Assembly: GCA_964017145.1 (NCBI GenBank)
Contig: OZ024843.1
Span: 177,001 to 241,000, forward strand
Direction of reading: 5' to 3'
From: Agrocybe praecox
Taxonomy: Eukaryota > Basidiomycota > Agaricomycetes > Agaricales > Agrocybaceae
DNA: 64,000 nt
Positions 4,231-54,294 of the stretch are shown piece by piece. Position 1 is the stretch's first letter. Each line of letters starts with the position of its first letter. A program made the translations under genes and the position numbers. The notes below the pieces were generated by a model that did not search any database, was not told the DNA's origin, and saw only the letters and a list, made by a program, of their open reading frames with translations.

Positions 4231-7200
4231 CTAGCTATCACTTTCATCATCAGACATGTCCACTCCATGTTCGGTGTTCATGTTGCTAGGGTTTTCTTCG
4301 CCGTCCATGTCATTCTGATCGTCGTCCTCACTATTGTCCTCGTCCTCGTCGTCCTCGCTCTTATTATCCCCATTTGCGTCTGCCGATGTTACTTCAGTCA
4401 AGGGACCTGCCCAAATTTTACAAAAATGATCATCAAGAGATCGTTGGAGGGCTGATTGAGCTTTAGCGTAAGCACGTAATCCTTCTTCCAAGTCCTTTTG
4501 GATATTGGTGCGGCTGGCAGCTCGCTCCTCCCACCAAGCACCCTTCCACTTGAGGAATTTGCTTACCCTTCGCATTTCTTCCCTCAGCAACAGCACCTCC
4601 TCCTTTGCTCGATTTGCTCGTGCTCTGCTCTTGGCCCACTCAGAGCGTAAAATTTCATCTGTAGCTTCATGGATATTTCCGTCACTGGACTGTGTGAGCC
4701 AAATCCAAGACAAAGTGCGACGTGTTTCGCCAGTGCCGTCTCGGCGGTTGCGTACTTCGTTTAGCAGAGATATTTCCGCAGTCTGGAGATGTTCCGGTTG
4801 CTCGACTTCCATTTGATCGTCCTCCAGGACTCCACGACGGTCGTGACGTTCTCTCAACTTGTTGGGATCCTGGTAAGATCGTATGTCTGCATCCTCCAGC
4901 ACACAAAGAGACTCTTCCCAACTTCCCACGCCATGTAGAGCCTTGTAGGCACGCCTTGACGCCCGATATTTCTCTGCGCTCATTCTTGCACGTTCGTACA
5001 CTCTGTCTATGACTGCCCGTGATCTAGTACCATCACACTGTCCCCTTACATTCTTGTTTTTGAATAATACCATGCGACTCTTGATTTTCAGTATGTGACG
5101 AACGCTATCAAGAGCATCGTGGCACTGAGCTAGCCGGATTTTCTCTTCAATTTCCGCCAAACCCGGAATGCAAATTCGCTGGCGATCCGTGGCGGGGATA
5201 AGGGATGGCAACCAAATGTCCATGTCTTCAGGGTGGTCAGATGATGGCTGAGATGCTGTTGTTCTAGACGATTGCAAGGTCGTTCGGTACTGAAGTAGTC
5301 CAGGTATATAAATAGATGAAATTTCGTCCCATGCACGAATTCTGTTACACAAAACATTTTGCTGTTCGGTGAGATTTCCTTCCTGTCTTGTTGTTGCGCG
5401 CGAGGTGATTCCTTTGGCAAGTCGTCGTACACGGCGTCTGAATTTTTGTACGGTTAGCAATGGCAAGCATCGATGAGACATGTGGACATTACTGTATTTC
5501 CTCTAAATCCAACCCCAATAAGATGAAGGCCGAAGCGCTTGTAGCATGGAGCATGACAGCACCGTCTTTCAGCATGCGCTCGTCGTCGTCCGCAAGCTCT
5601 TTCCGAATCTGTGCTTCCGAGATATCTAATTAAGTAGGTTAATAGGTTATGTCGATGTTGTTTATTAGGTACAAGAACAAACTTACTTTTGACATCGGAG
5701 TGATATGGATTGGGTGCCGTTTTAGGAAATATATCCTTCTCCCATATGGTACACATCTCTTCCCACTGTTTAGGGAGGTGGGCAGAGCTTGGCGAAGAAC
5801 GCAGAGAGTCGGTTAAGCCGCGATGAGCTTCAACCTGGATGTTTCTTTCGGCCACAGCTTCCTTGTATTTACGCATCAGGGTTTTTCCCATCCCGATATA
5901 TTTTAGCCAGTTCCAGAAATTAAAATGATCATCGAGGACGTCTTGACGTGACCCCAGACCTTGAGTTTTGGTTGAATTCCCTAGGGGGTTATGACCGGAC
6001 CATACTCTCTCGGGCACTTCCAAACCCGAGAGGCCGACGCCAGCGATGAAGTTAAGTGAAAACATTTGATGATTTGATGAAGTGCCATGCATCGGCTCGT
6101 GCAGCTTCGGGATGGCAGGGACTAATTTTATATTCTCGTCGATTTTGATAATATCGGGCCAGTGTTCCTCCATACGCTCGTATAAGTGGATAAACCACTG
6201 ACAAGCAATATCGTAGCTAACCAGAACCAGAGGGGTGTCAGCTGCTTTGATGGAAGACCCAAAAACGAAGTCCATATTCGCATATCTTGAATGTATAGAG
6301 TGAGATGTGTATTTTTAACAGCACTAGCCCAACGTAAACATACCTTTCCCCTTTCTGAAGATTTCCGATTCCCAAAGGAAGAATCATTTCTGATCTTCCA
6401 CAGAAGGCACCTCCAACGCCGGTGTGCCTTAGACCGTTCGAGTATTTGGACGATGCCTTGGCCAAAGCCTGCAGTCCAATGCACGTACTGATCTAAAATC
6501 AGATTAAAGCTGAGTGAGCATATCTGCTAAATTTCATTTATAAACGACTCACGTCGGCATCGTTCGCTCTGCTCAAAACATAGCTTTCGTATGGTTCGCG
6601 GGGTAACAGGTACGCCCAGCCAATTCCAAGCCCGGGATCTTGGGAATAATTCGAAACCAACTGGTTCTTCAAGCGAAAGTTGGCATCCATACACAAAAAC
6701 ATTGTGTATATATACCTAACCAGTTTCACGTTAAATGTAGACAGCTTCGTTAGTTAACTGAATAGACGACGTACATCGATTCCTCGGGAGTATTTTCAAA
6801 GTCGGACGGAAGATTGACACCCCTCCTTGGGCACGATGGACATTGAACAGCAAGTTCCCCTTGCTTTGTAGCTTCGACACCTGCATTATCATGCGCTCGC
6901 CCACCCCATTTCAGCATCTTCAAATGACGCCATTGGAGGACAATGCGCATAAGTGCTCGATACCGCGATTTAGGCACTGAAAGCCCGGTGTTGGCGGTAA
7001 GTTTTTCTATCCCCCGATAGAAGTCATAAGTCCCCGCTTTTGTGGTAAGCGCGAACTTATGGAGTAAATCGAGAAGACCGAACGTAGCGCATGTCTTGAC
7101 GGTTACTTGTGATCCGGGATAGAGTCCACGCCGGATTAACTGAAGATGTTTTGGGATAGCGCGATTGCAGCCACAAAACTTGATATTGACCTCATGTATG

Positions 7201-40835: not shown

Positions 40836-43800
40836 ATGCTAGGCTCTTCTCATATGTCTAATACAACTGTAAACATAGAAAATCCTGCCGTCTTTGTGGA
40901 CGACCATGATCCCGATATTGCATACCAGGGTTCATGGGGGACCAGCAGTGGCCTACCAACAAATATGAATATTTCGATAGCGCCAGGATCAAACACTCCT
41001 CCATACTATGGAACTCTACATACAACAATAGACTCTGGCTCCCCTGTTAATATCCTCAAGAATAACAGCTTTAGCTTCTGGTATATATTCAATGGTAAGT
41101 ACTTCCATATCGTTTTATTTAGTACTTAACAGTACCCAGGAACATCCGTGGAAGCAATATTTTTTGGTTCACCCACTCCAGTGCCGCTGTGCACGATCGA
41201 TGGTGCCAAACAAACCATGCTCCTACTATTACCCGGATCCGATCAATTTAGGTGTTTCAATAACGCTACACTGGCCCAGGCACCACACAATATTTCAATC
41301 GAAATATCACTACCTGGGATTTCCTTGGATGGTTTGTCATATAGGACTGCCACACTTCCAGAGTCAGGTGTTGGTTTACTATACAATATTGACCCATTCG
41401 AGCTGGCTGCAGTTGGTGGAGATTCTATTTATACCATCAACTTTGATGGTAACTGTTTTATTTTATTTGACTCTGAAGTGTTGAGTGTACACCTATACAC
41501 GACAAAAGCGAGCTCAGTGTCGGAAATAAAGATGACAACTATCTTTTTATACCTATACACGACAAAAGCGAGCTAGGTAGTGATGAATGAGTACGTAGTC
41601 AAGTACGAATGAGTCCATAACGAAACATACCTCAGTGTCGGAAATAAAGATAACAACTGAGGTAATAGAATGAAAACAAGTGGTTTATATAGGAAAGTAT
41701 AAACCACGTGTCCTGATCGAGTGCTGACCAGATACATAGTCCAACACACCCCCATCAGTACGAAGAGTCAGGACAGAGAAGAGAAAGTAACGGAAAAATT
41801 AGGTAGATACGAAAAAGAACAACCGAAGAAACAAAATAAGACAAAAAACTAGGAGTCAAAAGCTGGGGGAATAGTCAAATTAAGAACAGCCCGATGACGC
41901 GCAAATGCAGGATAAGGTAAAGCCTTTGTGAAAATGTCCGCTGGCATGTCCTGGGTTGGAATCCAAGTAGTTGAGAAAGAACCTTCACGAACATGTTCGC
42001 GAATGAAGTGGTGACGAATATCAATATGTTTCGAACGCTGGGATATAGCCAGTGACTCTGATAATGCGCATGCAGCCTGGTTATCGCTGAGAATAGGGAA
42101 AGGTCGAGGAACAGGAAGGTCAATTGAGCGCAAAAAAACGCACAGCCACAGTGCCTCTTTGAAAGCGTGCGACATCGCGTAGTACTCGGCTTCCGTTGAT
42201 GAGAGGGCAACACATTTTTGCTTGACAGCCGACCACGAGACGAGCGAACCTAAGAAGAAAAATGCGTAACCTGACACACTCTTCCTGTCACTCGTGTCAG
42301 AGGCCCAGTCCGCATCAGTGCATCCATTGGCCTGCATAAAGGAAGTCATAGACTGGGGTGCTGTAGGTGAGGCATGTCCTAGGCATAGGGAAAGGTATTT
42401 TGTGCCAGCCAAATAACGAAGGACATGCTTAGCGTATAACAGATGGACTCTCTTTGGTGACGAAGCATGTTGGCCCAACCACATTGCAGGAAATGCTACC
42501 TCTGGACGGAGATTGCATATGTACAAAATGCAACCCACCAGTCTTTGATATTTGGGCAACAATTCGGCATCCGTGATCTCTGGCAAAGGTACAGAGCCAG
42601 ATACATCTGGGGGTTTTGATGGGAAAGGAGTCTTTGCCGTTTTACAATTGGTGAGATTCCACTCTTCGAGCAATTCGGTGATGTAGACGTGAGCTGACAA
42701 CCATAAACGTCTATTAGCCCTGTCCCGGATTACGACCATACCCAAGAATTTCCCGCATTCGCCCATGTCGACAATGTTAAGGGATGCAGAAAGAGTGCGA
42801 AGGAACCATTGATAAAGGGGTTTTGAGTTTGTTACAGCCAAGCCATCATCAACGTGCAAGGGAACGAGCAAGACGAGTGGTGAACCATCTACGGGCATCG
42901 AAATTTTCGGATCCGGCGGTGTCGTCCACTTCCCATGAAACACCCCATGATCCGCGTCACAACGTTTTAAGCCCAAACCCAGAAACAGGCGAAGCAAGAG
43001 CATATAGAACTCGTAAGCAGACTGTCTTAACCCATACAATGCTACCAGCAACCTCAACACCTTTCCAGCTCCAGGATTCTGCAGGACATACCCAGGGAAA
43101 ACCCGCGCATAGACAGTGTGGCGTAATTTCGCATGCAGAAATGCGGTTTTACAATCGAACTGCATAACCTCGAGGTCCTTTACTGCCGCGAATGCAAGAA
43201 TAATTCAGACACTTGCACCACGAGCTACAGGCGCATAAGTCTCGTCGTATTGTGTCGGTCGCTGATTAAAACCCTGCGCAACCACCCTTGCTTTCTCTTT
43301 TCCTTCAATCCTCACACCATTTGCATCCGTCTTTAAAGCAAACACCCACTTCAACCCAACCGTTTTCTCGCCAGGAGGCAATGAAGTCTCTTCGAAAGCA
43401 TGCATTCCTGCGGGACTGAGACTGTCAAGCTCACGCTGCATAGCGGCCCGCCATAAATCAGCGTCAGGCCTTTGAACAGCTTCATCATAGGTGGCGGGAG
43501 CCTTAGTCAAGTCGAAAGTTTTTGTACGACCCAACCTAGGTGCAGAAAGAAAAGCAGCAATCTGCGGGACGTGCGACACAGTAGGCGGCAGATAGTAGTG
43601 AGGATCAAAACTGGATAAATGGATATCCCAGAAAGTCGAAGTCTCATAATCCAACGAGGTGTTGAAAGCTGTCTCAAAAGAGTCGGTTTCCAATGGGAGC
43701 TCAGCTGCCGCCACGTAGGACATGAAGAAATCCATGACACCCTTATTCGCTTCGTAACCACCCTGCAAAATCGAACGTTCCAACACATCAACAATCGGAC

Positions 43801-46800
43801 CATCAGCACCCTCATTGTCCACATCCTCCAAACGAGCATCCACCACCCTGTCCACACATTGTCCAGCAACACGGCCCACCACAGCACCCGCCAACCTTGT
43901 TCTCGAAGCAAGGAACACAATCATCGCAGACTTTCGTGCTTTACGGGCAGCTGCACTCTCCTTCCTCAAAACCATCACTTCATCATAAGCACGTCCTGCC
44001 GCAGTACGCTGTCGAGCCCTTGGCCCCAAAGATGGAGAAGGAACATCAGAGGTAGAAATTTCCGCTGGAGGTGACAAAGACTTGGGTATCGAAAATCGAG
44101 CCGACATATCTTCCACAAACTTGACATCGCGGGAGAAAGCATAGGATCCATTCAACTTCCGTACACGCCAACCCACTCGATGCTCATCATAACCAACAAA
44201 AATAGCTTCATATCGGGAAAGATCGCCCTTCTTGCGCACTTCAGGAGGGATCCAAACAAAACACTGGCACCCCCATACTCGCAGATGGGACAAGTTCGGC
44301 TTCGCTCCATTCAAGACCTCGAAAGGAGTTGTATTCACTGGTAACACTGAAGTTGGAGTCCTATTACGAAGATAAACTCCAGTCTCTGCAGCGTCATCAT
44401 AGAAGGCCATAGATAAACCTGCACCCGCAAGTAATGTCTGAGCTGATTCCTCTATAGTCCGAATATAACGTTCAGCCTTCCCGTTTTGAGAATGAGCATA
44501 TGGGGCTGTTTGCTGTACGACAATACCCTGCGAACGCAGCCAATCACCCAGAGGGCCCTTCCCGAATTCCAAAGCGCCATCAAAACGTAAGATCTTTACA
44601 CGGCGGCCTGTTAAACGGAAAAGGAATGATTCAATCCGCTGTACAAAGTCAAGGATTTCAGTACGTTTGGCCATCGATTTGTAAAAGCCCCAGTTTGAAC
44701 GATCATCCAGAATAATTACAAATTGAGTTTTATCCCGAAACGACATCTTCGCAAAAGGGCCACATGCATCCATGTGAAGCAGGTCACCAACGTTTTCTGC
44801 ACGAACAGCATTATTCACGTACGGCAACTGAGGAGACTTCCCAACAATGCAAGCCACGCAATTCCCAAATGTGAAAGGCCCGACATACTCCAGCCCTGTC
44901 GCATAATCCTTTGATAGCAGATTACGTGTAGCGTCAAGTCCCAGATGACCGAGACGTCGATGCCAAAGGTGTGGTGTCAACTTCAACCTAAGATAAACAT
45001 CGTTTTGCATCGGGACAGCTGGTAACGCAGTGATAGAGTGAGAAACAGTGTCAGACAAGGGGCGAATGAAATTGAGGTTCATCCAGTACAATCGGTTTCT
45101 CTTGTCGGCCGCCAATTGGAACCCAGGAAGTCGCGCATGAGTCATGGTAGCCAATGGAGTATCTGTTTCAAACACTATCCGCAGACCTTTGTCGTTCAAA
45201 GCTCCTACAGAGAGAAGAGCTAGAGGCACGTCTGGAGCAAAGAGACAATCGTGCAGAGCAAAGTCAACAGGTACACCGTTATGCACATAACGAAAAGTAA
45301 CTGTGCCAGACCCCAAAGCCTGCATTGATCCACAGTTTGCCGTACCGATGGAAACCGACTTTGAAGCATCGAAATCTGAAAACAGGGAACGATCATTGAA
45401 AAGATGATTCGTGCATCCTGAGTCCAACAAGGCATTGTAGCGATTCGATATGGAGACGAATGCAGTCGACGACAAGCCATGGATACCCGAAAAAGCCACA
45501 TTTCGAAACTTAGGGGATTCACACAAATCGTACAAGTCAAATCGCTCAATTGAGGTCGGGAACGAGGATACAGATAACGCGGCTAGTGGTTCTACAATGG
45601 ATGCATCATCAAATGTCGTTGGTGAAGCAGATGTGTAAGGTGACGTCGGGCGGGAATTGATAGAGGCAGACGTGTCAGGCATAGTAGGTAGTGACAAATC
45701 AAGATTCTCCATTTCTAGTGCATGAGCAGAACCGGCCAGGAAAGCTTGAGCACGTTGTCGCGTAGCCATAAACTCCTCGCGCCGGCCAGCCAAGCCTCCA
45801 CCTGGCTTGAAGCAAGTCGCCACAAGATGACCCGGCATATTACAGTTTGAGCATAGCAAGCCTGCCCGGTTGTTTGCGACAGGTTTGTTCACAGATCCAC
45901 CAGGAATAGAAGGCCGAGCTGCGTTTTGAGAAACTGATGCAGTAGAAGCGTGAGGCATAACTGCTGTGTTTGAGTTGCCACGACGGACATGAGATGCAGA
46001 TTGGATAGTGGCGGGCGCCTGAAAATTAATTTCCAGTGTGCGAATATCGTCACAAATATTGTGGAAACCCTCGATGTCATCATCATCTGTGTTCGAGAGC
46101 GTAACATTGAGAGTAGCTCGCAAAGTGCAGTAAGTCAAATTGTTTGGAAGACCTCGGATAAGACTGCTGATGTAGATTCGCATGCTCCCTGGATGACCAA
46201 GTGACGACAGGTAGGTAATGTTGCTCGACCAGGTCGTAACGTACTCGGTGACATTGGCTGGATCACAACGAAGTGCATAGAGGCGATTGACGAGATCCGC
46301 ACATTCGACAAAAGATCGAACACCGAAATGAGTAGCCAGCCTTTTGAAGATCAAGGAGGCAGTTCGAAGTTCTCGAGGCGCAACGGATGGTGGCAGCAAT
46401 GATCTCGCAACATCACTCAAACGTCCAGTCAGAATCTGACACGCAACAGCGTCATTCATTCTCCATTTCCTCCACGCGTCCAGCTGGGCCTTCGTACAGG
46501 GATCAGGTAAAGGCGGCATAACCACAGGCCTTTCGTCGTAAGGCAGCCCAGGATGAACCGGCATAGAAGGATCCAAGATGTGCCCGTATAGGTCCAAGCT
46601 CTGCAGCATCAACACCACCTGGTTCTCCCAAGCTAAGAAATCTAATCTAGTTTTAAGGATGGGGATGGAAGAAAGGCTCGGAACAGTAAGAGGTTTTGAA
46701 TCTAAAGAAGAATGAAGTTGATTTAAAGAAGTAACAGGACGAGAAGGCAAAGGTATCGCAGGAGTGGTAATAACAGGACTTTTTACAGAAAGTTGACGAA

Positions 46801-48520
46801 TAGAAGCAGGTGGACGAAGAAGAGGTCCTGGCCTGGATGAAGTCACAGGAATGATACGACGAGGAGTTTCATAAGGAGAATTACGATGTGTACGTGCATG
46901 CAATGCAGCCAAAGGAGAAGAAGGAACATTAGAGTGACGAAAATGAGGAGGAAGATCGCGAAGGCGAGGGGGCAAATTTGGTAAATTATAAGAGTGAACA
47001 ATAGGAGAATCGTCCGAATTCGGATTAAAAACATTATCAGAAGATGCAATGAAAGGAAAGCGATTACGATGGGGAACAGGAGGAAGAACCGGTGATACCG
47101 AGCGAGAGCGAGAACGATGACCAGACGGAAGAGGAGTACGATCCTCATGCCAAGGATTGAAGGAAGACATTGATATGCGGCTGATTACGGTTCAGGGCTA
47201 CCCGACCAGAGGTAATAAAATCGCCTCCAGGAAGTGAATGTATGCGCGTGATTACGGTCCACGGAAACCCGACTAGGGAGGAAAGTCCACTCTAGGTGAA
47301 AACAACAAGGGCAAGATCGCAAAGAGCGAGCCAAAGAAAAATTATGATGATTGTAAGAGAATGTTGCCTAAGCGGGGCCCATAACCTGTTGAGTGTACAC
47401 CTATACACGACAAAAGCGAGCTCAGTGTCGGAAATAAAGATGACAACTATCTTTTTATACCTATACACGACAAAAGCGAGCTAGGTAGTGATGAATGAGT
47501 ACGTAGTCAAGTACGAATGAGTCCATAACGAAACATACCTCAGTGTCGGAAATAAAGATAACAACTGAGGTAATAGAATGAAAACAAGTGGTTTATATAG
47601 GAAAGTATAAACCACGTGTCCTGATCGAGTGCTGACCAGATACATAGTCCAACATGAAGTGTAAGGCTTACACCCATCGCTCTATAGGTATTTCAATTGC
47701 ATTATACTTCTTATTCTGGTTTAACTCGACAATGGATACAACATCATACTCATATCTAATCGATGACGGACCACCGCTTAATTTCTCAATCAGTAATCCA
47801 ACTCAAGATCCTACACGGGATGCTGGATCTCAGCCTTGGCTTTTTGTTCAAACACCTCTCTCTCGAGGCTCACATACATTGCTACTTACCGTTGCGGAGC
47901 ATGTACCCAATATCAATGGGACATTCTTTTTAGAACAGGCTATTGTACAAAACACCACAAAATCATTTACTTTGGATGCTGTTCCAGATATTCCAGGAGC
48001 ACTCGAGCCTCCTGCGCCCTCGAGCGCTCATCAAATAAACCGAGGTGCGATCGCTGGTGTGGTGGTCAGCGGAATTTTGATGCTGTTGATGGGATATTGG
48101 TTATGGAAACGATCGTCGCGGAAACAAGGTCAAACACTCAACGATAGCGGCTTGATTGTCGAACCATTCAGCGCACCGCGTCCTACCCGAATCGGACTGT
48201 TTCATTTGGCCCAATACATGACAGTGGAGAAAACAAGCAAATATCGACAGGCGTTTGGTTCACAGAGCGCTCAGTTGGGACTATCAGGAGACGTACGCGA
48301 TGCTGAAAAAATAAGCATGGAAGAAATCATGCCACGTCGAGTGCGATACAGGTTTCATGTGGATGGGGGAGAGGTAGCAGATTCCCAACGTGATGGGATC
48401 AATGACGACGACGATGTTATCAGTCTACCACCGATTTATAGCACCCTAGGACGGCCTCGTCCAAATTCATTGAGAGCTGAGTCACTCACCTCGCATGATA
48501 TCATCAATCCTCCGGCGTAA
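40836..48520 (+). CDS. One-pass membrane protein family, copy 5, with a copia element in intron 2
   Basis: Exons 40836-41094, 41140-41448 and 47688-48520 total 1401 nt and 466 aa with no stop. Intron 2 is 6.24 kb because a complete copia element sits in it in antisense orientation; both splice sites are intact and match copy 6. The protein has the first half (FVDDHDPDIAYQGSWG, PYYGTLHTT, FWYIFNG, PLCTIDGAKQ, HNISIEISL, LPESGVGLLY), the second half (SYLIDDGPPLNFSISNPTQD, HTLLLTVAE), a short Pro/Ser stalk, the helix GVVVSGILMLLMGYWLW, and the full tail: YMTVEKTSKYRQAFG, RYRFHVDGG, ISLPPIYSTLGRPRP, ending INPPA. ATG 40854 is an equally good start. A KDZ transposon begins 42 bp after the stop, so the 3' end of the transcript is probably changed. 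Confidence 0.72.
41479..41746 (-). repeat. Copia 3' LTR
   Basis: 268 bp. It holds two direct repeats of ACCTATACACGACAAAAGCG, two of CAGTGTCGGAAATAAAGAT, and a 10-bp hairpin GTGGTTTATA / TATAAACCAC (41680-41707) that may belong to the promoter. Confidence 0.95.
41849..43165 (-). CDS. Copia polyprotein, C-terminal part (RT and RNase H)
   Basis: 438 codons in the same frame as the main part, separated by one stop. RT motifs are FDCKTAFLHAKL and LVPLHVDDGL (the copia xVDD active site). RNase H motifs are DADWASD, SVSGYAFFFLGSLVSWSA, SSTEAEYYA and HIDIRHHFIREHV, ending near the 3' LTR. The Met at 43165 lies within RT sequence and is not expected to be a natural start. If the TGA is not read through, this part is not made and the copy is defective. 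Confidence 0.92.
   Translation of the reverse strand: MQFDCKTAFLHAKLRHTVYARVFPGYVLQNPGAGKVLRLLVALYGLRQSAYEFYMLLLRLFLGLGLKRCDADHGVFHGKWTTPPDPKISMPVDGSPLVLLVPLHVDDGLAVTNSKPLYQWFLRTLSASLNIVDMGECGKFLGMVVIRDRANRRLWLSAHVYITELLEEWNLTNCKTAKTPFPSKPPDVSGSVPLPEITDAELLPKYQRLVGCILYICNLRPEVAFPAMWLGQHASSPKRVHLLYAKHVLRYLAGTKYLSLCLGHASPTAPQSMTSFMQANGCTDADWASDTSDRKSVSGYAFFFLGSLVSWSAVKQKCVALSSTEAEYYAMSHAFKEALWLCVFLRSIDLPVPRPFPILSDNQAACALSESLAISQRSKHIDIRHHFIREHVREGSFSTTWIPTQDMPADIFTKALPYPAFARHRAVLNLTIPPAFDS
43205..47170 (-). CDS. Copia gag-pol polyprotein, main part (gag, protease, integrase, start of RT)
   Basis: 1321 codons starting MSSFNPWHEDRTPLPSGHR. Residues 1-160 are Pro/Arg/Ser-rich. The gag domain follows, with a CCHC knuckle CSNCNMPGHLVATC near residue 440-454. 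The protease active site is LLDSGCTNHLF near 580. The pre-integrase zinc motif is WHRRLGHL...NCVACIVGK. The integrase core has the Asp in LLHMDACGP, the Asp in LRFDGALEFG and the Glu in NGKAERYIRT, the D,D,E set. The RT start is LKWVFALKTDANG and QYDETYAPVA. The ORF ends at TGA 43205-43207 inside the RT; the next codons continue RT sequence in the same frame (IILAFAAVKDLEVMQ). The position normally has Arg, so CGA to TGA is the simplest change. Confidence 0.93.
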   Translation of the reverse strand: MSSFNPWHEDRTPLPSGHRSRSRSVSPVLPPVPHRNRFPFIASSDNVFNPNSDDSPIVHSYNLPNLPPRLRDLPPHFRHSNVPSSPLAALHARTHRNSPYETPRRIIPVTSSRPGPLLRPPASIRQLSVKSPVITTPAIPLPSRPVTSLNQLHSSLDSKPLTVPSLSSIPILKTRLDFLAWENQVVLMLQSLDLYGHILDPSMPVHPGLPYDERPVVMPPLPDPCTKAQLDAWRKWRMNDAVACQILTGRLSDVARSLLPPSVAPRELRTASLIFKRLATHFGVRSFVECADLVNRLYALRCDPANVTEYVTTWSSNITYLSSLGHPGSMRIYISSLIRGLPNNLTYCTLRATLNVTLSNTDDDDIEGFHNICDDIRTLEINFQAPATIQSASHVRRGNSNTAVMPHASTASVSQNAARPSIPGGSVNKPVANNRAGLLCSNCNMPGHLVATCFKPGGGLAGRREEFMATRQRAQAFLAGSAHALEMENLDLSLPTMPDTSASINSRPTSPYTSASPTTFDDASIVEPLAALSVSSFPTSIERFDLYDLCESPKFRNVAFSGIHGLSSTAFVSISNRYNALLDSGCTNHLFNDRSLFSDFDASKSVSIGTANCGSMQALGSGTVTFRYVHNGVPVDFALHDCLFAPDVPLALLSVGALNDKGLRIVFETDTPLATMTHARLPGFQLAADKRNRLYWMNLNFIRPLSDTVSHSITALPAVPMQNDVYLRLKLTPHLWHRRLGHLGLDATRNLLSKDYATGLEYVGPFTFGNCVACIVGKSPQLPYVNNAVRAENVGDLLHMDACGPFAKMSFRDKTQFVIILDDRSNWGFYKSMAKRTEILDFVQRIESFLFRLTGRRVKILRFDGALEFGKGPLGDWLRSQGIVVQQTAPYAHSQNGKAERYIRTIEESAQTLLAGAGLSMAFYDDAAETGVYLRNRTPTSVLPVNTTPFEVLNGAKPNLSHLRVWGCQCFVWIPPEVRKKGDLSRYEAIFVGYDEHRVGWRVRKLNGSYAFSRDVKFVEDMSARFSIPKSLSPPAEISTSDVPSPSLGPRARQRTAAGRAYDEVMVLRKESAAARKARKSAMIVFLASRTRLAGAVVGRVAGQCVDRVVDARLEDVDNEGADGPIVDVLERSILQGGYEANKGVMDFFMSYVAAAELPLETDSFETAFNTSLDYETSTFWDIHLSSFDPHYYLPPTVSHVPQIAAFLSAPRLGRTKTFDLTKAPATYDEAVQRPDADLWRAAMQRELDSLSPAGMHAFEETSLPPGEKTVGLKWVFALKTDANGVRIEGKEKARVVAQGFNQRPTQYDETYAPVARGASV
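47366..47386 (-). promoter_or_regulatory. Copia primer-binding site (initiator tRNA half)
   Basis: Directly inside the 5' LTR the element strand reads GGTTATGGGCCCCGC. This complements an initiator tRNA-Met anticodon arm (GGGCCCATAACC), the half-tRNA priming known for Drosophila copia. Confidence 0.6.
47387..47654 (-). repeat. Copia 5' LTR
   Basis: 268 bp. I found no difference from the LTR at 41479-41746. The element leader of about 216 bp follows before the gag start at 47170. Confidence 0.95.
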
Positions 48521-48554: not shown

Positions 48555-48562
48555 GCTTATTT
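48555..48562. repeat. Target-site duplication of KDZ-2, left
   Basis: GCTTATTT, repeated at 54287-54294 and present once after copy 6. Confidence 0.78.
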
Positions 48563-48994
48563 CAGAAGTTGTAATCCGCTGGGGGAGACTGAGAATGATG
48601 AGACTCTGAGACTCGGAGTTTCCCGATGACCTTAGACCCAAACAAACAAGTCGCGGCACCGTCGGAATGCCCATATGGTTTCCTTTAACATGCCACGTTG
48701 CCGAATCTTGGCGCATGCACATGCGCCATCGTACGCGCTTTATCATATCCATTGGCTGTATCTTCGGCGCTCGCTACAATCCTCGAGGCCAGTATCTATA
48801 TTGAAGTGGTAAAGTGATATCAGTAGATAACCCTCAAAAGTGTGGACCGGATCCTACTAGCTATGACCATGAGGCTATCATCCCCGAACTGATGTTCCAA
48901 AGAGCAATGTACGCAAAATGTACGTTGCAATGACTTGTTTGATGACCTGGAACACATTTACATGAGGCTACACATCCACAATGCTAAGAAATTT

Positions 48995-49013
48995 TATCAC
49001 CTTTAAGGTGATA
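48995..49013. promoter_or_regulatory. Palindrome upstream of the alpha-kinase gene
   Basis: TATCACCT / AGGTGATA with a 3-base centre, 41 bp upstream of the likely TATA box. It could be an operator or transposase-binding site. Confidence 0.4.
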
Positions 49014-49053
49014 CTTTATCATAGAATATAAAAGAATTTCGATAAGAAAAAGG

Positions 49054-49060
49054 TATAAAA
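49054..49060 (+). promoter_or_regulatory. TATA box of the alpha-kinase gene
   Basis: TATAAAA lies 76 bp before the ATG at 49136. A second, ATATAAAA, lies near 49026-49033. Confidence 0.5.
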
Positions 49061-49135
49061 GAAGCTACCAACCTCTCTAAATATCTCAGTCTTTTTCAGA
49101 CAATTATTCACTGCATCCTCGTTGCTTCAATCTAG

Positions 49136-51708
49136 ATGTCTCAGGCTTCGTTTACCACCACTCGTGTTCCAGGGATTAATGTGCGTCCAACTACTCGGGC
49201 GACTCAATGCCAACACTGCCTTGCATCTCGGATGAGCGATGTCAAGTGTTGCATGGGTGAAGGTGCTGTTCTCGAAAACTATGGTCGCTGGTTTCAACGA
49301 GTACGCTCTTGTTCTAAATAGTAATGGCTACACAAACTGATCTAAATGACTTGCAGTGCTCAGGCGCTAATTGCGGCGCATTCTATTGGTACAACGAGCC
49401 CACTACACTTGAAATGATCCCCGAGGATGTTCGGCTTCGGTTTTCTCTGCGTCAAAGTGCCAAAGAGTCCGATTCTGCGATTCCCTGCTGCGCTCCAAAC
49501 TGCCTAACTGCTGATGGCAAACCTCGCGTTGCTAATAAGCACTGCGGCCAAACTCCTCAGCGGTGTGCGTCTTGTTGCAAGCTTGTTGGTGGATGCAAGA
49601 AGCATGGTGGAACTTCTGTTCTGCAGGCCTCGATGTCTCAGCAGGAAGTACTGTTGCCTATCCAGGAGGCAACATATCAGCCTCGAGCAGCGTATGCGCG
49701 TCCTTTGGACGAAAATTATGGCAATCCGTACACCAAAACTCAGACGGATCGCGAAGAAAAGCAGAGACGGTTGCAACTTGAGCTAGAAATTGCTTCCAGG
49801 AGGAAGAACAAGGTCGAAGTAATCTTGTGGTCGAAGGTGAGTTATTTTACAGTTTTATGCTATTGAATCAGTCATCTCACTACTCAATTATTGTGTTTTA
49901 GAGGTTCTGCGAACCGCGAACATTCCACGTTGTGGCAGACCACCCTGAAAACCTTGTCCTCGATGGAGCAGGCTGTCAGGCTGTTGTCTCTGCGCTAGGA
50001 AATACTGCGCTGGTTCTGGTTCTCTACGCTTCGCATGATCGTTTCGATTGGATAACTCAAGTACTCGATGTGCCTATTACAATTGGGACGCAGCGCGTAG
50101 TTCTTATTCGCGCTGACGGCTTGCACGAAGAAGAATGCCCACGCTTGGACGAACACGTTGCAAAGTTTATTGAAAAGCAGGATTTTTCTTCAAGGGCATC
50201 ACTTTCCGAGACTCGCCATCCTCCTGCCGCCTCTCAGTCGACATCTACAATACCAGAACTCATTCCCAATGAATCGACACTCACGATATCGTCAGATATT
50301 ACTGCAAGCACTACTGCTACAAGCCGACCAACCCTTTCAATTCCATTTCCCCGCCGGTTTGCATGCGACATGGAGCCAGGGATGAAGGTCTTGTCGCAAA
50401 TCAAGATAGGCGCCGAGATCGAAGCTGCTTTCAGTGCGAACTTCCCCGAAAGTAAATATAACAAGGCAACATACTACAGGCATCGTCGTTTCTATTTGCA
50501 GGCAGTCGAGAGGGATATACTTCATCCCTTTGTTAGCCACGGTCGAACCGAACAAGGATCATGGGCCAACGTAATAAGAGGTCCGTTAATCTGATTTCTC
50601 TTGCTCAAGAAATTTGTTGATTATTTCCATTCTAGCACTCTCTACAGACCAGTCTGTTCCCTCGGTAACATCTCAAACGATCGCTAGAGATGTTATTGCT
50701 TCTCCGGACCCTGTCATACCGAGCCCTAAATCTCCGGTCCTTATTGCTAATCAATTTAGTGACAGTGTCGGTGTTCGACACGGAACACGGTTGTGTAACG
50801 AGGACTACACTGTGTGGACTGTCAGCATCGAGGGATTTCAATACGAGAGCGGAGAACTTCAATCCCATGTTATAGAGCAAGGGAAAACAGTTCTTTATGA
50901 CGAAGAAGCAAGATATATTGGTACACGAAAGGAGATTCATATGGTATGTTTCCATTTATACTTGCTATTCATATTCTGACAGATTTACAGTGCCTTATTC
51001 ATCTCCAAGGTGAGGACCGAACTATGGCTGCAAAACCATTCAAGATTGTTGGTCCTAACTGGTGGTATCCTTGTCCGAGCATGGAGAGCTACTGTTGGCT
51101 TGAGGGATCTCGCTTATCCCGGGGTCATTTCTTTGGGCAACAGTTTAATATCGCCATTAACGACAAAGAAATACTGCTGTGTGGTATGTCCCTATTTTAT
51201 ATCAATAAAAATCTTCACTAACAAATTTTTGTAGACTTTGACATTCTTCCCGCATTTCTGCTGTGTCGAGGAAGTTATACTGTTGTCACTCAACCATGGT
51301 CAACGGGGATCAGTATCTGTGTCAACAAATTGGACTCCAATTCTGATAGGAACCTCTTGGTCACGGACACCTTCTCGGCCTTCTCACATTACACTTTTGA
51401 GTATAGCGGACGGAAGGCAGTCATGGTGGATTTTCAAGCTTTTTTGGATCTCAACGACAAGTATCATGTGTTCGATTTTGTCACTCATACGATGTGAGCA
51501 ATACTTATGTTTATACTGGACATACGGAAATTAACACGTATAATTTTTTAGGTTGGAGTTTATTCACGAGCAAAATTACGGTGGGAACAAGGGTCCGATT
51601 GGGATACAGCACTTTGCTGCACGTCACAAGTGCAACAATATATGTAGATCTCTAAAGTTGCCTGCCCCTGTCTTTCAGGAGCTTCCTGAATTTGAAGATA
51701 TGCTGTAG
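49136..51708 (+). CDS. Alpha-kinase-like protein with Cys-rich N-terminus, resident in KDZ-2
   Basis: Seven exons (49136-49300, 49357-49836, 49902-50580, 50636-50943, 50991-51183, 51235-51493, 51552-51708) sum to 2241 nt, 746 aa, all GT-AG and in frame. The N-terminus is Cys-rich: CQHC...CC, CSGANCGAFYWYN, CCAPNC, CASCCKLVGGCKKH, a probable zinc-binding module. A variable Ser/Thr-rich middle follows. The C-terminus matches the alpha-kinase fold: TMAAKPFKI (candidate ATP-binding Lys), TDTFSAFSHYTFEYSGRKAV, VDFQ, FDFVTHT, and the zinc-linked end GIQHFAARHKCNNICRSLKL. The classical DLQG reads DFQA here, so activity cannot be assumed. The gene is inside the transposon ends and convergent with the transposase. 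Confidence 0.8.
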
Positions 51709-51796
51709 ATAAATTATAATCCACGTATTTTATTGTCCGGTAGTACATCAAGGTGTAGCAAAGAGAAATATCAATTAATTTTGACATTATGTTTAA

Positions 51797-54029
51797 CTAC
51801 GAGAATATAGCTGAGCTCGGGATTGACCAGGGCGCATGACCGGCCTCTTCTAACTGCTTAATGGCATACCGGTTTCGGCGCTTGATCATTTCATCGAGAT
51901 AGAAGTTAAATCTTGTTACCTCCATGTCTCGAAGTATTGCCTGATATCCACCAAGCCATACATTTGTCTGTTCGCAGATTGATGTGTTGAATTTCCACTT
52001 TCCGTCATCCGAAATAAGCTCGGGGAAGGCTGCAGGATTGCAGTAACGTTGACAATGCATATCTGTTAGCTTGTGTTTGGATTTAAAATGAAACACATCA
52101 ACTGGCTTGCCCGTATTCATAAAATGCGAGTCGGATATAGCGCGCTGGTGAGCATCAAGCCTGCAGTTGTTGTCAAAAATGAAATACTCCGGGGTGGATT
52201 CTGGAGTAGGGAAGGTAGCTTTTGCAAAGATCTGAATAATTCTCATTAAACATAGTCTGTGAGGTAAGATAATGGTTTACTCACATTAACGGCAGAAATA
52301 GCTTCTGATCCAAAGAATGTTGCCCGGGAGAGTATAACACCGCATGGTCGCATTATAAGCTGCTCGTTATGAGTACGACGTCGCCCAAAGTATGCCTTCA
52401 ATTTTTGATTTCCGTCCTCTGGCTTTCCCTCGCATTTTATAGTATTTTCACTCTCGATTAGGACCTCATCATCATTTTCTTCGTCTCCGGTGGGTATTGA
52501 CGTATCTGGAACAGATACGCCAGCCTTTTTGAGACGTGCACGTAGTTGGAATAGAGCCTTTCCTTTCTGGAAGTATGCTTTCTCAAGTGCCCGATGTGTG
52601 CTGAGTATACACGTTCGAAATCCGGCTTCTCGACTTGCCTTGCACTCCGTCACAGCACAAATTGCATTCTGATCATTGTGATTGGCACAGAAGCGATGAC
52701 GGTTGCTGACCAGTGGATGTTTACAGTCATGAATGGCACAGCATGGATGTCCGATCGTGTCCCCATCACATACAGCAGCCTGCATTTTCACTGGGAAAAG
52801 CGAAAATATAAGTAAAATAGATAAGATTCAGTAATAATCACTCACTTTTTTGCCCGTTCTCGTCCTCAAATACAATGAAGCAAAGATCACATGCATGGGT
52901 GTAATTTTCCTGTCCACATCCTTCCATCCTTTTGTTTCGCTCAGCCAATGCATCTTTCAGACGATCAGCCTGTGATCCCTCGTTGTGCGACAATGTAAGA
53001 ATTGATCCTCGCTCAGCTCTGTCTAAAAGCAGTGAATAAAGAAGGAATCCGTTCATGACGTGTTTTTCTCCCAAAGCAATCGAGGTTTGCCAGTTGGAAG
53101 CTTGAGAGTCGACACATGCAAGTTTATTGTATGCGAGTTCATTATTAACCACCTGCGCTTGCAGGTTTGCAAGCGCAGCATTGTAAATTCGAGCACTGTT
53201 CATTGCTGATAACCTGTAACACTTTTAGACTTGTGTGATATCTGTTGAGTGATACACACACCATCCATATACCTTCGACGTTGCAATAAATTCCAGCAGT
53301 GCCGCATCCATAAAAAAATGCTGCGAGACTTGAACTATGAAAGGCATTCCTCCGTAGTACTGACGCACATTGTATCTTTTATGAACAAAATTGTTGTGAT
53401 AATACCGCCGGTTACATCCTACAGAATTATCTTTGTCAATCATTTCGAAAGTCAAAATACAATGAATTGCTTGCCTCTACAGTAAAGAGACGTCGTATAG
53501 ACTGGAAGCGCACCTTCTCGAAGCGTGTATAGTGTACCCTTATAGGTTACTGGGTCGGTCAAGGTGCGGACATTATCTGTATCACGATAATGCGAACACA
53601 TTGAGTCTGTACAAACCCGAGTAGGTGGATATATATGCTTGTATGCTTCCATAGGAAGCCACATTAATATAAAAGCCTCTACTAAAATTTAGACGAAGTG
53701 TACTTACATGTTCCCATTGGTAGGGCATACTTATTATACATGATCACATCTGCATCACGGAGAATGTGTGTCTCGATGGACAAAGACCAGATCTCTTCTT
53801 TTAGGATTGTCCAGCAGGCAGACGTTGTTTCTAGGCTCTCTCTCATGATATGGGAGATGATTGACTGTATGTCAGGAGGGAGATGTGCTGGAGGTGCCGT
53901 GATATCCTTGAGACTGTTTCGTATGGTAGGCAAGGAAGCCCTGAAAAAATCCGAGAATTTTGCAATCTTGAGAAGAGGTAGTGAGTCACGGCCATTGTGA
54001 ATGGCTAAATCGGTGGCGGTACGCAACAT
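51797..54029 (-). CDS. CxC5/CxC6-type KDZ transposase
   Basis: Multi-exon transposase of KDZ-2 starting MLRTATDLAIHNGRD at 54029. Exon 1 has a helical N-terminus (PPDIQSIISHIMRES). The next exons carry CTDSMCSHY, YCRGCNRRYYHNNF across an intron with a GC donor, and a RYNVRQYYGG block. A second cysteine cluster follows: CCAIHDCKHPL, RFCANH, CAVTECKASREAGFRTC, HRALEKAYFQKGKALFQLR. The core has GVILSRATFFGSEAISAVN, IFAKATFPTPESTPEYFIFD (probable catalytic Asp), GKPVDVFHFKSKHKLTDMHC and FNTSICEQTNVWLGGYQ (probable Glu). No stop or frameshift was seen across the exons I joined. It ends 88 bp from the end of the convergent alpha-kinase gene. Confidence 0.82.
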
Positions 54030-54286
54030 AGGAAGCGGGTACTAAATTTTAACAACTTCTTTAGACTCTATATAAGCTATATACGAGTCTACGAGTCTAT
54101 GAACGATTATTTTCTAAGTGTCGCGGACGTTTCCGGGTGCCGCTGTGCCGCTGCCTTGGCATCAAACGAACCACATGCGAGTCTTGCTGTTTTCGGAGTT
54201 CCGAGTATAGACTTGGCATCAACTTGGCGTGTGCCTAGTCTCAGAGTCTCAGAGACTCAGTCTCTCCCAACGGATTACATGCCCTC

Positions 54287-54294
54287 GCTTATTT
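54287..54294. repeat. Target-site duplication of KDZ-2, right
   Basis: GCTTATTT, the partner of 48555-48562. Confidence 0.78.

Follow-up and report, generated by a model that had tools for sequence, protein, structure and literature searches.

A DNA transposon of Agrocybe praecox with a resident alpha-kinase gene beside a putative CxC5/CxC6 transposase gene

The window analyzed here, i.e., a 64,000-nucleotide stretch of the genome of Agrocybe praecox (contig OZ024843.1, positions 177,001 to 241,000), contains at positions 48563-54286 a DNA transposon of 5,724 bp whose coordinates are exact and which comprises two intact convergent genes, one for an alpha-kinase and one for a CxC5/CxC6 protein, read here as the transposase. 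The stop codons of the two genes are separated by 88 bp and no third gene was seen inside the element, in agreement with the first-pass annotation, which had described a seven-exon alpha-kinase gene with an open frame, convergent with a transposase and with nothing else between the ends. The inverted ends and 8-bp duplication that it had reported were likewise recovered, with the refinement that the inverted part (TGTAATCCGyTGGGrGAGACTGAG, identical at 22 of 24 positions) begins 7 bases inside each true end, the outermost bases being unlike on the two sides, i.e., CAGAAGT on the kinase side and GAGGGCA on the transposase side. A duplication directly adjoining the TGTAATCC repeat was considered and rejected, the true duplication lying 7 bp farther out on both sides.

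DNA transposons are usually pictured as a transposase and its ends, and the first-pass annotation had taken the kinase to reside in the element rather than to be a host gene next to it. To examine residence, both families were sought throughout the genome (59.17 Mb, 347 contigs), and profile searches returned 12 places with a match to the alpha-kinase domain (PF02816) and 15 with a match to CxC6. Five of the kinase places lie no more than 2.1 kb from a CxC6 place, every one of them in convergent orientation; chance alone would produce about 0.02 pairs of this kind within 3 kb. A sixth pair, on contig C7, the kinase of which had escaped the Pfam search, was recognized from translation and a search with the window kinase. 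A convergent kinase is present at all six loci of the transposase clade that includes the window element, and at five of these the two genes lie within matching ends and an 8-bp duplication. The kinase-side ends of the five delimited elements read CAGAA(C/G)TT or CAAGAGTT, and their transposase-side ends GAGGGCAT, GAGAACAT or GAGAACGT. The sixth element (C4:3081513) is disrupted; it is related to the C12 element, with 89% DNA identity over 3 kb, and its right end was not found. The transposase end of the C12 element also occurs as a partial copy (L073, positions 1420-2660; 97.7% identical over 1.24 kb). A DNA-level search of this genome returned no other full-length copy of the window element.

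The layout is not attributable to chance, because four other divergent elements repeat it, each with its own perfect 8-bp duplication, and the kinase is a gene of the element and not of the host, because distant relatives of the element in the same genome carry it too. The search that had been proposed, i.e., for homologous kinases inside the same ends and 8-bp duplication, yielded, within this genome, five divergent elements of 5.7-6.9 kb, the window element among them, with both genes, the two unlike ends and perfect 8-bp duplications. Residence of the kinase in the element is well supported, and there is very little doubt that positions 48563-54286 represent a mobile unit of which the kinase is a resident.

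Two short elements (761 and 779 bp) are bounded on either side by ends of the window type, show perfect 8-bp duplications (ACTTTGCT and CCATATTC) and contain neither gene; they appear to be non-autonomous derivatives. Copies that lack the kinase between matching ends had been named beforehand as evidence against residence, and were encountered only in the form of these two short copies, from which both genes are missing. When they are included, the duplication measures 8 bp in all seven copies with both ends defined (five full elements and two short ones); window-type ends that were single-ended or incomplete (L051, L052, L055, L056 and L057) were not counted. The other nine CxC6 places represent a more distant type, with matches mostly of 22-28% identity. 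No kinase was detected at these nine sister-clade loci by the Pfam search, which also missed the C7 kinase, and the PF02816 match nearest to a sister locus on a shared contig is about 38 kb away. In four near-identical sister members the end of the element (CAGTACTT..., read inward) follows the transposase at a distance of a few hundred bases, and there is therefore no room for a convergent kinase there; a second end and a duplication of sister-clade elements were not found. Because none was detected at the nine sister places, the kinase is characteristic of one clade rather than of CxC5/CxC6 elements as a whole. Sister copies (L077 with L029; L078) were also observed to hold a second frame of ~240 aa upstream of the transposase on the same strand, possibly a non-kinase partner gene; it was translated in one copy, and the DNA of a second copy is almost the same in this region.

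The co-phylogeny of kinase and transposase, which had been put forward as a test, could be resolved only in part. The kinase tree comprised the five element kinases and four partial other kinases (L009 and L011 were left out), while the transposase tree comprised six members of the clade and three of the nine sister transposases, used an earlier 636-aa window model, had the stops of C4:3081513 replaced by X and contained one long branch that was flagged. The element kinases group together at no more than 83/83 support, and the placement of the window, C3 and C12 kinases was not resolved; the three sister transposases stand apart from the six kinase-bearing ones at 100/100 support. The C7 and C8 elements are the sole pair recovered in both trees.

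The kinase gene has GT..AG introns and is predicted from its sequence to encode one open frame of 746 aa, with a cysteine-rich N-terminus, conserved middle regions and a C-terminal alpha-kinase domain (PF02816, E 4.2e-12, 47 bits against a curated cut-off of 21.3). A profile of the kinase cores matches solved alpha-kinases in the PDB (E 4e-14 to 2e-9), i.e., a putative kinase, myosin heavy chain kinase A, alpha-protein kinase 1, eEF2 kinase and a TRP-related protein, and the H, D-x-Q, D and zinc motifs line up in the printed matches. The alpha-kinase residues K559, D674, Q676, D689, H660, H720, C722 and C726 are present in the window copy; these are taken to represent the putative ATP lysine (K559), the D-x-Q motif, the catalytic D and the H/H/C/C zinc site. 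The kinases of the relatives are 20-28% identical to that of the window, and the five aligned element kinases share 44 invariant columns, which include nine N-terminal cysteines, K559, H660 and the zinc-site residues H720, C722 and C726. The first D of D-x-Q (position 674) is replaced by N in the C8 and C7 kinases, while the C3 kinase has E for Q at 676 and S aligned to D689, so that substitutions at the active-site D and Q are seen in three of the five kinases; the ATP lysine and zinc site are kept.

An N-x-G-R-x-F-x2-C pattern in the N-terminus presumably resembles GRF zinc fingers, and Pfam zf-GRF gave no match up to E 10 in four N-terminal segments. No named Pfam domain was found in the N-terminal and middle segments, apart from a weak DUF4548 match (E 0.055) in one of six. 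An AlphaFold model of exon 3 alone reached pLDDT 50 and was not used further. A search of the genome itself did not find the N-terminal module outside the elements, and the kinases include no close intact pair. When the five-row kinase profile was run against 5.8 billion proteins, at least two full-length relatives were recovered (two among 7,993 candidates scored), both from Favolaschia claudopus; these are 87% identical to each other and have the same N-terminus as the element kinases.

The transposase gene, in which one of the five introns is of the GC..AG type (GC donor after exon 53645-53475), is predicted from sequence to encode an open frame of 652 aa with strong matches to CxC5 (E 4.8e-33) and CxC6 (E 4.4e-24). 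It is 44-75% identical to its relatives in conserved matched segments, with lower values (24-31%) for N-terminal segments and for one long C7 match running through introns. Candidate DDE residues lie at D348, D528 and E595, and are conserved in 61, 63 and 59, respectively, of 64 aligned homologues (from 120 listed of 311). An RNase H-like (DDE) catalytic fold is modelled for a close homologue, which indicates that the CxC5/CxC6 protein is probably itself the transposase, i.e., of DDE type in its own right. No relative of the transposase was found in viral contigs. The KDZ core (PF18758) gave no match up to E 10 in either the 652-aa model or the homologue P0002, which returned CxC5 and CxC6 only. 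Two single-pair profile comparisons of CxC5/CxC6 with KDZ proteins of the same genome, made with a shallow 4-row KDZ alignment, gave E 0.027 in one case and E 0.0018 with probability 14.8 in the other; the order of motifs around the second D is similar in the two. Elsewhere in the window (5910-6708, minus strand) lie two KDZ-core (PF18758) transposase fragments, the second of which contains stops, and 176 PF18758 matches were counted in this genome. The features of the window element and of its relatives are listed in Table 1.

Table 1. Coordinates, lengths and duplications of the window element, its parts and its relatives in the same genome
Feature	Position	Length	Strand	Details
Window element		5,724 bp		duplication GCTTATTT (perfect)
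Target-site duplication, left copy	48555..48562	8 bp	.	GCTTATTT, perfect
Kinase-side end	48563..48593		+	CAGAAGT then inverted part TGTAATCCGCTGGGGGAGACTGAG; end type also present in four further elements and in both short copies
Alpha-kinase gene	49136..51708	746 aa	+	7 exons: 49136-49300, 49357-49836, 49902-50580, 50636-50943, 50991-51183, 51235-51493, 51552-51708
CxC5/CxC6 transposase gene (putative)	51797..54029	652 aa	-	6 exons: 54029-53708, 53645-53475, 53418-53262, 53213-52846, 52790-52285, 52231-51797
Transposase-side end	54256..54286		-	GAGGGCA then inverted part TGTAATCCGTTGGGAGAGACTGAG
Target-site duplication, right copy	54287..54294	8 bp	.	GCTTATTT, perfect
C12 element		6,516 bp		duplication CACGATAT (perfect)
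C3 element		5,749 bp		duplication GACATTTC (perfect)
C8 element		6,505 bp		duplication AGAAATCC (perfect)
C7 element		6,900 bp		duplication GCATTTAT (perfect)
Short copy L053	4137-4897			window-type ends, perfect 8-bp duplication
Short copy L054	3541-4319			window-type ends, perfect 8-bp duplication

Upstream of the element, a 1,321-aa frame named Copia-like Gag-Pol from its look occupies positions 43205-47170 on the minus strand, and a 288-aa frame with a hydrophobic stretch (47654-48520) ends 42 bp before the first base of the element, which may therefore have inserted just behind a host gene. Other alpha-kinase loci were also noted in the genome. One frame (L009, positions 39-2706) lies within inverted repeats of at least 45 bp that are 95.6% identical, and L011 is a copy of this locus with 82-88% similarity; the two perhaps represent another kind of transposon with an alpha-kinase. 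Another alpha-kinase fragment is found in repeats that are 99.5% identical on different contigs (L012, 383-2978, and L014, 26-2978), at which no inverted ends or duplication were seen.

Taken as a whole, the element is probably, at somewhat better than an even chance, a cut-and-paste DNA transposon of a CxC5/CxC6 family with two resident genes, the kinase acting as a helper. In such a system the transposase would bind the end repeats, excise the element and insert it elsewhere with an 8-bp stagger, as in DDE cut-and-paste transposition. The kinase would act in trans for the element, its cysteine-rich N-terminus directing it to DNA, chromatin or the transposase, and would phosphorylate either the transposase or a host silencing or repair factor, resulting in more transposition or less silencing. 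TET/JBP genes, which are thought to serve other fungal transposons, would offer an analogy. The kinase has remained a constant partner across deep divergence, which points to control by phosphorylation, exerted by the element on its own movement or on its host. The specific role of a trans-acting helper of transposition, or one against silencing, is proposed tentatively, at not far short of an even chance.

A number of observations weigh against this account. Both the substrate of the kinase and transposition itself are inferred from sequence, and the genomic context derives from one genome. The kinases diverge much faster than the transposases (20-28% identity to the window kinase, compared with 44-75% in conserved transposase segments). 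Some of the kinases may be weak or inactive because of the active-site substitutions in C8, C7 and C3; the C7 kinase furthermore carries a frameshift, and the gene models for the C3, C7, C8 and C12 elements were joined in part by hand, with splice sites unchecked. The sister loci without a detected kinase imply that movement in general does not require one, but the Pfam search that gave this negative also missed the C7 kinase. Finally, a protein-database search with the window kinase alone returned none of 5,647 candidates at E <= 0.001, and a Foldseek search of the PDB with the model of the transposase homologue likewise returned nothing at E <= 0.001, VIA-align having served as a second look at Foldseek's PDB matches only.

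The main rival explanation holds that the kinase is directed at the host and not at transposition, i.e., that it represents a survival, drive or addiction gene, or a suppressor of host defence, which keeps the element in the population. The far greater divergence of the kinases can fit an arms race with host targets, a changing host target and weaker constraint each being compatible with it, and the sister clade without a detected kinase may be counted on the same side, as may the kinase domains known from other fungal selfish elements, the Spok spore killers. No second enzymatic or toxin-like Pfam domain was found in the window kinase, the segments of its relatives or the two Favolaschia proteins, however, and the position and orientation of the kinase beside the transposase are fixed in six elements; a host-directed role is judged rather unlikely. 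It is less probable still that a host alpha-kinase was captured once by an ancestor and has since been carried as passive cargo of no use to the element. Passive transfer among fungal transposons has been described for TET/JBP genes (PMC12730594), and some of the other alpha-kinase loci of this genome also look repeated; yet useless cargo should decay, and here most active-site and all zinc residues persist down to 20-28% identity and in Favolaschia, while the N-terminal module has no counterpart found outside the elements in this genome.

That a host kinase gene simply lies beside a transposase is practically negligible as an explanation, given a kinase at six of six clade loci, five of them inside perfect 8-bp duplications, and nothing was found in its favour. 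Membership of IS3EU would account for an alpha-kinase and a transposase in opposite orientation (PMC12730594), but is extremely improbable and was rejected, since the window element and its relatives have CAG../GAG.. ends and, in all seven copies with both ends defined, an 8-bp duplication, as opposed to TA..TA and usually 6 bp. The helper reading preferred above is directly testable, as the ends, the duplications and two intact genes are at hand. A broader proposal, that CxC5/CxC6 proteins constitute a distinct and widespread DDE transposase group of mushroom-forming fungi, one clade of which is a two-gene system whose DNA- or chromatin-directed alpha-kinase controls transposition or silencing, is possible but a little more doubtful than the helper role itself.

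Among known systems, the KDZ transposons (Kyakuja, Dileera and Zisupton) resemble the window element in their association with accessory genes and in that Pfam names both CxC5 and CxC6 as KDZ-associated; they differ in that the window transposase has no PF18758 match and its partner is an alpha-kinase and not TET/JBP. The first-pass designation as a KDZ transposase would thus hold by association only, the core being unmatched and the profile link weak. Zisupton and a Dileera family share the 8-bp duplication (PMC12730594), while Kyakuja, with a 7-bp duplication, CA..TG termini and no inverted repeats, is unlike the window element (PMC12730594). The kinase itself resembles myosin heavy chain kinase A and eEF2 kinase in its C-terminal catalytic core and zinc motif, and differs from them in being encoded by a transposon and fused to a cysteine-rich N-terminus and unnamed conserved middle regions.

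An insert that broke poMSH4 in a sporeless strain of Pleurotus ostreatus, a 6,792-bp fragment present in several copies, encodes a 739-aa CxC5/CxC6 reading frame (Lavrijssen 2020; PMC7641404, which cites Iyer 2014 (PNAS) for the cysteine clusters). Its authors report no KDZ transposase near the insert and suspect Copia retrotransposons, a link that sets it apart from the window element, to which it is similar in size and in its CxC5/CxC6 frame. By analogy, this frame may be the transposase of the insert, a simpler reading than Copia, and the insert is possibly the same kind of element; a CxC5/CxC6 protein acting as transposase may thereby explain the MSH4-breaking insert, which its authors left open (PMC7641404).

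The closest precedent is provided by the IS3EU elements of rusts, in which an alpha-kinase gene lies opposite to the transposase, as in the window element (PMC12730594, section 4.1). The presence of an alpha-kinase in a transposon is thus not in itself new, and the earlier remark that no kinase-bearing KDZ element had been described requires the qualification that alpha-kinase genes in DNA transposons have already been mentioned. IS3EU differs in host lineage, in its ends and in duplication length (TA..TA termini and usually 6-bp duplications; PMC10045372, PMC12730594), and all TET-bearing IS3EU families place TET/JBP between the transposase and oppositely oriented alpha-kinase genes (Kojima 2025; PMC12730594). 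The alpha-kinase families of rusts are large, a published table giving 79 and 39 genes in two of its columns (PMC4469406), and transposon-borne kinases may contribute to them. If the reading proposed here is true, alpha-kinases would, together with those of rust IS3EU, represent a second recurrent helper enzyme of fungal transposons beside TET/JBP, one that acts by protein phosphorylation.
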